Below, piece after piece: positions 29,532 through 31,493 of a stretch of 34,260 bases of DNA. Below the pieces are notes generated by a model that saw nothing but the letters and a program-made list of their open reading frames with translations, did no database searches and had not been told where the DNA came from. The translations under genes were made by a program, and so were the position numbers. Numbering within the stretch: position 1 is the stretch's first letter; every line of letters begins with the position of its first letter. The stretch spans positions 1 through 34,260 of the forward strand of contig JAHDDI010000009.1 in assembly GCA_020629435.1 (NCBI GenBank), given 5' to 3'. The DNA is from Minisyncoccota bacterium. GTDB taxonomy: Bacteria; Patescibacteriota; Minisyncoccia; Phycocordibacterales; GCA-2747955.

Positions 29532-30119
29532 ATGAAAAACAGAGACCTCTCTATTGATGACCCCGTAGTTCAGGACGGTGACGCAGTCCTGCGCAAGAAA
29601 GCACTGGCTGTTGCACCAGAACTGATTGGTGGCAAAACCATTACAGCTGAAATACAAAAAATGAAAGACATCCTGGCCCTAGAATACGATGGTGTAGCCA
29701 TCGCCGCACCACAGATTGGCTATTCTCGGCGTATTTTTGTGGTTTCTGGGCGTGCATTCCAAGAAAAACCATCTGACCCCCTGCCAGCTGATATGGTCTG
29801 TATTAATCCAGAAATAGTCAAACGTTCTTCCAAAACAGAATTAATGGACGAGGGTTGTTTATCGGTTCGATATCACTATGGTCAGGTCAAACGACACACC
29901 AATGTATCGTTACAGTACACAGACGAACAGGGGTCTGTGCATCTGCGTGGCGCAGGTGGACTGTTGGCCCACATATTTCAGCACGAAATCGACCACCTGG
30001 ATGGAATACTCTTTACTGACAAGGTGCATAATTTAGAAGTCATGAAAGGTAAAGACAAAATCCAACTAGACAGGCAGCGCCAAAATTACATTGAATCACA
30101 AATAAAACATGGACAATAA
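29532..30119 (+). CDS. def: Peptide deformylase
   Basis: GVAIAAPQIGYSRRIFVV; MDEGCLSVRYHYGQV; AHIFQHEIDHLDGILFTD. TATAAT 29520-29525 lies 6 nt before ATG. Confidence 0.95.
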   Translation: MKNRDLSIDDPVVQDGDAVLRKKALAVAPELIGGKTITAEIQKMKDILALEYDGVAIAAPQIGYSRRIFVVSGRAFQEKPSDPLPADMVCINPEIVKRSSKTELMDEGCLSVRYHYGQVKRHTNVSLQYTDEQGSVHLRGAGGLLAHIFQHEIDHLDGILFTDKVHNLEVMKGKDKIQLDRQRQNYIESQIKHGQ

Positions 30120-30939
30120 CAAAAAAATTAAATGGGTGTTTATGGGGACACCGCAGATTGCTGTTGATTTTTTGCAGAGTCTCAAAGACAACTACGATAT
30201 GATCCCCGATTTAATTGTGTGCAATCCAGACGAAAAAGTCGGGCGCAAACAAATAGTCACTGCCCCACCCGTTAAAAATTTTGCTCTTGAAAATAACATT
30301 CCACTGTTGCAGACACATACACTGGATTCTATTGAATCAGATATTTCAGGATACGATTTATTCTGTGTCTTTGCATTTGGTTCATTACTAAAACAAAACC
30401 ACTTGGATTTGCCCAAACATGGTGTCGTTAATATTCACCCATCACTGTTGCCACAGTACCGTGGTCCATCTCCTATTGTATCGGCTATTTTAGATGACCA
30501 AAAAGAAACAGGTGTTACACTAATGCAGCTAGAACGTGCAATGGACAGCGGCCCAATTATCGCCCAAAAACCAGTAACAATTACTGAATGGGAAAAATAC
30601 TATGTTCATGAAAAAAACATGGCTGTAATCGGGGCCGGTTTATTTCACGACACTATTGAAAAATATATATCACAAGAAATAACACCCGAGATACAAAACC
30701 ACGAACAAGCAACATATTGTGGTAAATATAACAAATCTGACATGCAGATTGACCTAGACAGCAATTATTATGCACAATATTTGACCTACTGTGCCTTTGA
30801 AAAACCATGGTTTTTCAACAAAAAACGGTTTGTAGTTACTGCCGCACACTATGATGCAGAACACGATAAATTTGTTATACTACGCGTTGTTCCAGAGGGG
30901 AAAAAAGAGCGAGACTTTCTAGAGCAAGACATACTATAA
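30109..30939 (+). CDS. fmt: Methionyl-tRNA formyltransferase
   Basis: WVFMGTPQIAVDFLQSL; GVVNIHPSLLPQYRGPSPIVSAILDDQKETGVTLMQLERAMDSGPIIAQ. Overlaps def. Confidence 0.94.
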   Translation: MDNNKKIKWVFMGTPQIAVDFLQSLKDNYDMIPDLIVCNPDEKVGRKQIVTAPPVKNFALENNIPLLQTHTLDSIESDISGYDLFCVFAFGSLLKQNHLDLPKHGVVNIHPSLLPQYRGPSPIVSAILDDQKETGVTLMQLERAMDSGPIIAQKPVTITEWEKYYVHEKNMAVIGAGLFHDTIEKYISQEITPEIQNHEQATYCGKYNKSDMQIDLDSNYYAQYLTYCAFEKPWFFNKKRFVVTAAHYDAEHDKFVILRVVPEGKKERDFLEQDIL

Positions 30940-30940
30940 A

Positions 30941-30969
30941 TTGACAATTCATATAATAATTGCTATAGT
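30941..30969 (+). promoter_or_regulatory. Consensus-like sigma70 promoter for a candidate ncRNA
   Basis: TTGACA (30941-30946), 17-bp spacer, TATAGT (30964-30969); predicted TSS about 30976. Confidence 0.65.
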
Positions 30970-30975
30970 AGTACT

Positions 30976-31130
30976 AGATTGTGACATCACTGTCGCAGTT
31001 CAACCTTAGGTTTACATTCTGTAAATCTAAACAATCAAAAAATTTCTTTCCCAAATCACTTTTTTGTTGAACTGTGACATTGAAATCATAATCAAAACAA
31101 AAACCACATACATTGTGGTTTTTGTTTTGA
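30976..31130 (+). ncRNA. Candidate structured small RNA of unknown family
   Basis: Closing helix 30977-31004 with 31066-31093 (24 Watson-Crick pairs or wobbles flanking short mismatches, plus further wobble detail in findings); hairpin 31006-31015/31021-31030; terminator 31090-31132; dedicated promoter upstream. Confidence 0.55.
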
Positions 31131-31132
31131 TT
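31090..31132. terminator. Bidirectional terminator between fmt/ncRNA and FKBP gene
   Basis: Perfect 19-bp inverted repeat AATCAAAACAAAAACCACA tacat TGTGGTTTTTGTTTTGATT. Confidence 0.9.
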
Positions 31133-31136
31133 AATT

Positions 31137-31493
31137 TTATTGAATATCAAATAGTTCGACTTCAAATATCAAATCTGACCCCGCAGGAATCAATGGTGAC
31201 GGTGACATGTCTCCGTATGCCAAGTGTGCTGGAATGTTAAATTCAAACACATCCCCTACTGACATTAATTGCAGACCTTCTGTCCAACCAGAAATAACCT
31301 GGTTTAGTCCAAACGAAATTGTTTCACCCCGTGCTCGTGATGAATCAAATACTGTTCCATCTGCCAATGTTCCGTGATAATGGACTGTTACCTGCGATAC
31401 TTCTGTTGGGTTTTCTGTCCCTGTACCCTTGTTGATTACACGGTACTGTAGTCCCGAATCAGTTTTGGTATATTGTGATTGTTCTTCTGTCAT
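31137..31493 (-). CDS. FKBP-type peptidyl-prolyl cis-trans isomerase
   Basis: VTVHYHGTLADGTVFDSSRARGETISFGLNQVISGWTEGLQLMSVGDVFEFNIPAHLAYGDMSPSPLIPAGSDLIFEVELFDI. Confidence 0.95.
   Translation of the reverse strand: MTEEQSQYTKTDSGLQYRVINKGTGTENPTEVSQVTVHYHGTLADGTVFDSSRARGETISFGLNQVISGWTEGLQLMSVGDVFEFNIPAHLAYGDMSPSPLIPAGSDLIFEVELFDIQ

Follow-up and report, generated by a model that had tools for sequence, protein, structure and literature searches.

Introduction

RocR of Legionella pneumophila is a trans-acting sRNA whose seed pairs with a box shared by several DNA-uptake mRNAs, and which represses competence (PMC9674577, PMC9977716). It depends on RocC, a chaperone with a ProQ/FinO domain, and the mRNAs that it represses are those of comEA and the type IV pilus (PMC9674577, PMC9977716). 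The csRNAs of Streptococcus pneumoniae, which are CiaR-dependent, use open stretches to pair with comC where its translation begins, and their effects add up (PMC4507080). Natural transformation occurs in Patescibacteria, in the Saccharibacteria at least, where com genes and pili are reported to have separable roles; ComEC, DprA and ComFC make up the core com set conserved across Patescibacteria (PMC10633639). Our literature search found no paper on base-pairing sRNAs in this group.

Here we analyse a 34,260-nucleotide stretch of DNA from a Minisyncoccota bacterium, hereafter the window, which belongs, as one of 26 contigs, to a genome of 698 kb (G000). The results support the conclusion that it contains a gene, so far unannotated, for a structured RNA with a promoter and a terminator of its own. 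The most telling part of this gene is a motif at 31040-31056, taken together with the complement of that motif at com gene starts, a feature that an earlier note on this DNA had missed.

In the function that we propose for it, the RNA would resemble RocR in setting one seed against several DNA-uptake mRNAs and in repressing competence. It differs from RocR in its predicted targets, which are comEC (both halves), dprA, comM and comFC at their start codons, in its form, which is that of a long closed rod, and in that pilus genes are not enriched among its matches. The doubled seed that we find in a sister genus could play an additive role similar to that of the csRNAs. These, however, are directed at comC, the pheromone precursor, with pairing around the Shine-Dalgarno sequence and the AUG, whereas the predicted targets of the window RNA are uptake machinery genes, and most of its sites are at the AUG, or immediately past it, in mRNAs that appear to be leaderless. 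The window RNA thus appears to be analogous, not homologous, to RocR and the csRNAs; nothing supports homology.

A structured RNA gene downstream of fmt

The features of the locus are as follows.

30109..30939, + strand: fmt (methionyl-tRNA formyltransferase), the syntenic upstream neighbour, given for context only
30941..30969, + strand: promoter, with -35 TTGACA at 30941-30946, a 17-nt spacer and an extended -10 TATAGT at 30964-30969
30976..31137, + strand: predicted sRNA transcript of ~157-160 nt, its ends inferred from the promoter and terminator
30977..31004, + strand: 5' arm of the closing helix P1, present in the MFE and centroid structures, with double-sided changes at 8/16 aligned pairs across four species
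31006..31030, + strand: inner hairpin, 11 pairs and a 3-nt loop in the MFE structure
31040..31056, + strand: conserved single-stranded motif AAATTTCTTTCCCAAAT, the proposed seed for pairing with com mRNAs, from conservation, unpaired probability and com complements
31066..31093, + strand: 3' arm of P1, present in the MFE and centroid structures, with the same covariation as the 5' arm
31089..31133, no strand assigned: intrinsic terminator, symmetric and A/T-flanked, from folding and a terminator scan
31137..31493, - strand: FKBP-type peptidyl-prolyl isomerase gene (PF00254), the convergent neighbour, given for context only

The fmt stop codon occupies 30937-30939, and a single base separates it from the -35 box. 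The sRNA promoter makes 11 of 12 consensus matches, carries TG before its -10 box and was the top site in the 2.7 kb scanned. With its own promoter and intrinsic terminator, the sRNA is by sequence an independent transcription unit, which is one of the marks of a trans-acting, base-pairing sRNA. The 5' arm of the terminator shares a few nucleotides with the outer end of P1, and the terminator can serve both the sRNA on the + strand and the convergent FKBP gene on the - strand. Elsewhere in the genome, another terminator-like inverted repeat (C26:7652-7707) resembles the window terminator on both strands.

Folding 30976-31132 gives an MFE of -58.5 kcal/mol (z -10.1). Folded without the terminator, the rod has an energy of -40.1 kcal/mol (z -9.3), which none of 200 shuffles reached.

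The earlier note's description of this region is accurate to within a base or two. It had placed TTGACA-17-TATAGT just after the fmt stop and a terminator at 31090-31132, and both are found, at 30941-30969 and 31089-31133 respectively; it had also seen no meaningful ORF inside the RNA, and we found no convincing one. The RNA folding that it had suggested as a check gives the long helix, the inner hairpin and the terminator, all in the MFE structure, and reproduces both the helix 30977-31004/31066-31093 and its two interruptions (1x1 and 2x2). The position of the inner hairpin holds, its size does not, the MFE version being slightly longer than described, and a proposed third hairpin is seen merely as five A-U pairs. 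The note had further argued that the G.U wobbles point to the + strand; consistent with this, the opposite strand of the rod folds more weakly (-34.2 kcal/mol, z -4.7, vs -40.1 kcal/mol for the + strand).

Conservation and covariation in related genomes

BLASTN of the element against 60 relatives returned mostly A/T-rich noise, because the helix sequence diverges. DNA similarity search having failed, the sequence that follows fmt was read in genomes of the same family, and homologues were recognised there. The element stands directly after fmt in all three sister-genus species examined (G001, G004 and G006), and a promoter with 17-nt spacing directly follows fmt in all four species, the hexamers being TTGACA/TATAGT, TAGACA/TATATT, TAGACA/TATTGT and TCGACA/TATTCT. 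Common to all four are the long closing helix, the inner hairpin and the invariant motif AAATTTCTTTCCCAA on the 3' side of the open region; in the three relatives the inner hairpin occupies the same place with a different sequence. The homologues fold with z values of -5.7 to -10.7. The closing helix of the sister genus continues straight into a T-tract, as read from sequence and folds, and looks as though it were itself the terminator. In G001 and G006 a tRNA-like sequence (read by eye) follows the RNA instead of FKBP. Reading the regions downstream of fmt in G002, G003, G005, G007, G009 and G011 showed the RNA to be absent there. Wherever this region was covered in the family's other genera, no such RNA follows fmt.

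A covariance model built from the three relatives alone finds the window with 29.3 bits (E 4.6e-4 genome-wide), and the window is its sole match at E <= 0.05 in G000. Matches in other orders of the class (up to 34 bits) were rejected, being unrelated long hairpins without the motif. The exact 15-mer motif occurs in 10 of 397 genomes of the order, but within this RNA structure only in G000, G001, G004 and G006; the copies in the six other genomes lie inside coding sequence and were rejected as RNA homologues. As far as the genomes examined show, the RNA family is lineage-specific.

Aligning P1 without gaps from its shared inner end, TTCA, gave 16 pairs, with the arms anchored by hand in four sequences. 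Of these pairs, 8 are changed on both sides and 93.8% of cells are paired, which none of 500 shuffles matched; with the partner shifted by 1-3 columns, 28-39% are paired. Four covarying pairs are seen within the sister genus alone. Given four sequences and hand-anchored arms, we regard this covariation as strong but not final. The earlier note had named a lack of conservation and covariation as the finding that would speak against its candidate; what we see are syntenic homologues in three other species that keep the promoter, and that keep the helix by compensatory changes.

These results bear on the alternative that there is no RNA gene here, but just a bidirectional fmt/FKBP terminator next to a chance inverted sequence. 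While a near-symmetric terminator between convergent genes is what this alternative would lead one to expect, the rod retains a z of -9.3 once the terminator is removed, and promoter, helix and motif are kept in two genera with compensatory changes. We give the alternative almost no credence.

A separate observation concerns genus g4 of the same family, in which in-frame TGA codons occur in fmt, comEC and other genes (L042, which is the fmt of G009; L272, L273, L284, L292 and L329-L331). One TGA of G009 fmt aligns with a Trp conserved in relatives, and TGA therefore probably reads as Trp in this genus. In G000, TGA ends genes (57 of 703 ORFs). If true, this would be a change of code inside one family.

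Comparison with Rfam and 6S RNA

The earlier note had called for a comparison with Rfam. Searching the window returned no family at gathering score; sub-threshold matches were mostly to the A/T-rich terminator or to long hairpins. The note had also remarked on a loose likeness to 6S RNA, and the two do have in common a long closing helix around an asymmetric open region. This likeness goes no further. RF00013 had no match at gathering score in the window or in 98 relatives, although positive controls were found, and the geometry and conserved sequence are unlike those of 6S RNA: the stretch after the 5' arm forms a hairpin, it is the 3' side that is open, and the conserved part is an open, pyrimidine-rich motif. 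We thus rejected 6S identity, and find it barely credible that this is a 6S-like RNA, mimicking an open promoter and sequestering RNA polymerase. That the RNA represents a new family, and a real one, is a conclusion in which we have high confidence.

An open motif with complements at com gene starts

Within the motif, CUUUCCC has a mean unpaired probability of 0.91. The sequence AAAUUUCUUUCCCAA is invariant and single-stranded, with one copy in G000 and two in G001, G004 and G006; depending on genus, the RNA carries one or two open copies of UUUCUUUCCCAA. A conserved, largely unpaired seed, here AAAUUUCUUUCCCAA in four species, is a second mark of a trans-acting, base-pairing sRNA.

An initial scan for the complement of the motif gave matches at competence gene starts, the complement lying ~20-30 nt or less from the start codons of the comEC channel, the ComEC nuclease half, dprA, comM and comFC. 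All ORF starts, picked by a crude rule, were then ranked by the energy of the duplex that their surroundings would form with the seed region. In G001, comEC ranks first of 752 (ATGAATAATTTGGGAAAGATT), dprA second (ACTGGGAAAGAAATTTAATATG), comM third (ATGAACTTGGGAAAG), the MBL (nuclease) half of ComEC fifth (ATGAGGGAAAGAATTT) and comFC 29th. The G000 ranking, of 796, is headed by a PaaX/Cas2-like regulator, with a lamin-tail-domain protein encoded just downstream of that regulator second, comEC fourth (ATGTCATGGGAAAGACAA), ComEC-C seventh, comM 33rd and comFC 79th; dprA was not found in the incomplete G000 assembly. A homologue of the first-ranked G000 regulator is also first in G004, of 399 (ATGGGGAAAGAAATTT), where comFC ranks ninth. 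The com-start complements are thus shown by computation to be far above expectation in two genera, bearing in mind that comM, ComEC-C and PaaX joined the wider target set once the matches had been seen. The PaaX/Cas2-like regulator may be part of the com circuit.

Gene names rest on Pfam and NCBIfam models (PF03772 for ComEC, TIGR00732 for DprA, TIGR00368 for YifB/ComM); the identity of ComFC rests on a TIGR00201 ComF-like match below the curated cut-off, and that of the ComEC nuclease half on a match to the C-terminal part of TIGR00361 ComEC/Rec2. Since the alignment of the MBL proteins covers positions 423-663 of the ComEC/Rec2 model, this family has ComEC divided between two genes. The membrane channel gene and the separate MBL nuclease gene lie at distant loci (C22/C12 in G000, C11/C20 in G001 and C6/C20 in G004).

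Protein conservation does not explain the comEC site, since it is read in different frames in G000 (ATGTCATGGGAAAGA) and G001 (ATGAATAATTTGGGAAAGA). The comM site may derive partly from a conserved protein start, M-x-L-G-K.

Two other observations come from the same rankings. In G000, at C24:75973-76800, the PaaX/Cas2-like regulator is followed by the lamin-tail/PKD-domain protein, and both starts are seed-complementary. In G001, good seed-complementary sites also occur at genes for a BI-1-like membrane protein (C20, Bax1-I family, rank 6/752) and an oligoribonuclease-like protein (C18, rank 7/752).

Controls and limits of the com signal

For ComEC, DprA and ComFC, a core set that was named independently of this work (PMC10633639), the Fisher combined p over three genomes is 4e-7, and for the same three core genes without G001 it is 0.0014; both values exclude G004 dprA, which is outside the ranked set and has no site. 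Shuffled seeds reach the observed com score in 0 of 300 cases in G001 and 1 of 300 in G000. The reverse-complemented seed gives no com signal, its score being near the shuffled mean, and thus the com match is strand-specific. In relatives that lack the RNA, com starts score ~ -2 to -9 kcal/mol, vs -13 to -21 kcal/mol at comEC, ComEC-C and dprA in G000 and G001. No enrichment for seed complementarity is seen at PilB, RecA or most prepilins; as regards the pilus genes, this fits the separable com and pilus roles in Saccharibacteria (PMC10633639).

The picture in the two remaining species is different. In the part of G004 covered (356 kb), comEC, dprA and comM have no good site, nor do dprA and ComEC-C among the few loci covered in G006, despite two seed copies in the RNA of each. 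In G004, 146 of 300 shuffled seeds reach the observed score, and in both species GGGAAAGA is hardly above its reversed control genome-wide. Coherent complementarity near starts, a third mark of a trans-acting, base-pairing sRNA, is therefore seen in G000 and G001 and is missing from most com genes of G004 and G006. Either the regulon has been rewired, or the com matches of G000 and G001 have another cause.

Two other explanations can be put forward. Protein-titrating RNAs of the CsrB/CrcZ type carry a repeated short single-stranded motif, and the window RNA could likewise be a structured sRNA that titrates a protein, such as one of the cold-shock type or another that binds single-stranded RNA, through its open pyrimidine motif, the com matches then being coincidental. 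An invariant single-stranded motif, present twice in the sister genus, is in keeping with such RNAs, as is the lack of most com sites in G004 and G006. However, in the window family a single long helix frames the motif, which occurs just once or twice, and the complement of this motif is found in a coherent gene set; titration does not predict complements at com starts, in the sense orientation only, in two genera. We consider this explanation unlikely.

Alternatively, TTTGGGAAAG could be the DNA operator of a transcription factor that controls com genes, with the sRNA gene merely containing the same operator. The sites lie just downstream of -10 boxes, which is a usual position for a repressor operator, and the gene of the PaaX/Cas2-like regulator itself has a site in G000 and G004. 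Yet the motif of the sRNA lies ~65-80 nt inside the transcript, in antisense orientation and unpaired, between covarying helices, and the opposite orientation at com starts gives no signal. An operator is, in our view, a still less probable explanation, and decidedly so.

A proposed role in natural competence

On balance, we favour the view that the RNA is a trans-acting, base-pairing sRNA that controls natural competence. We are evenly divided about a more specific proposal, in which this undescribed Patescibacteria RNA family is dedicated to the repression of competence and recognises leaderless com mRNAs, including those of both split-ComEC halves, at their 5' ends, by means of one or two fixed seed copies held open by a long covarying helix.

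Many com mRNAs are apparently leaderless, given that a -10 box directly precedes the AUG. More generally, 89 of 694 G000 starts have TATAAT a short distance upstream, and the presence of -10-like words before starts suggests that G000 mRNAs are mostly leaderless. TATAAT-like hexamers are the commonest words right before G000 start codons, and Shine-Dalgarno words are nearly absent; some AAAGGAG is present in G001 start regions. An anti-Shine-Dalgarno role for the motif was considered and rejected, since G000 start regions show TATAAT and no Shine-Dalgarno sequence, and GGGAAAG is directly upstream of 0 of 694 starts.

As we envisage the base-pairing mechanism, the sRNA would be transcribed from its own promoter, and its long helix would serve as a stable handle, holding the motif in single-stranded form. 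The motif would pair with the extreme 5' ends of com mRNAs, and pairing at the first codons would hide the start codon and block ribosome loading. DNA uptake would be kept off until production of the sRNA stops. In the sister genus, the two seed copies could give stronger binding by one RNA, or could engage two mRNAs.

If this proposal is true, Patescibacteria, for which our literature search found none, would have a regulatory RNA with a predicted regulon, and antisense control would here be adapted to leaderless translation, showing how antisense RNAs act on mRNAs with almost no leader. The seed and its named targets make the regulation of competence in Patescibacteria open to a simple reporter test. 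The RNA would also, if true, mark the times at which these host-dependent cells permit gene exchange.
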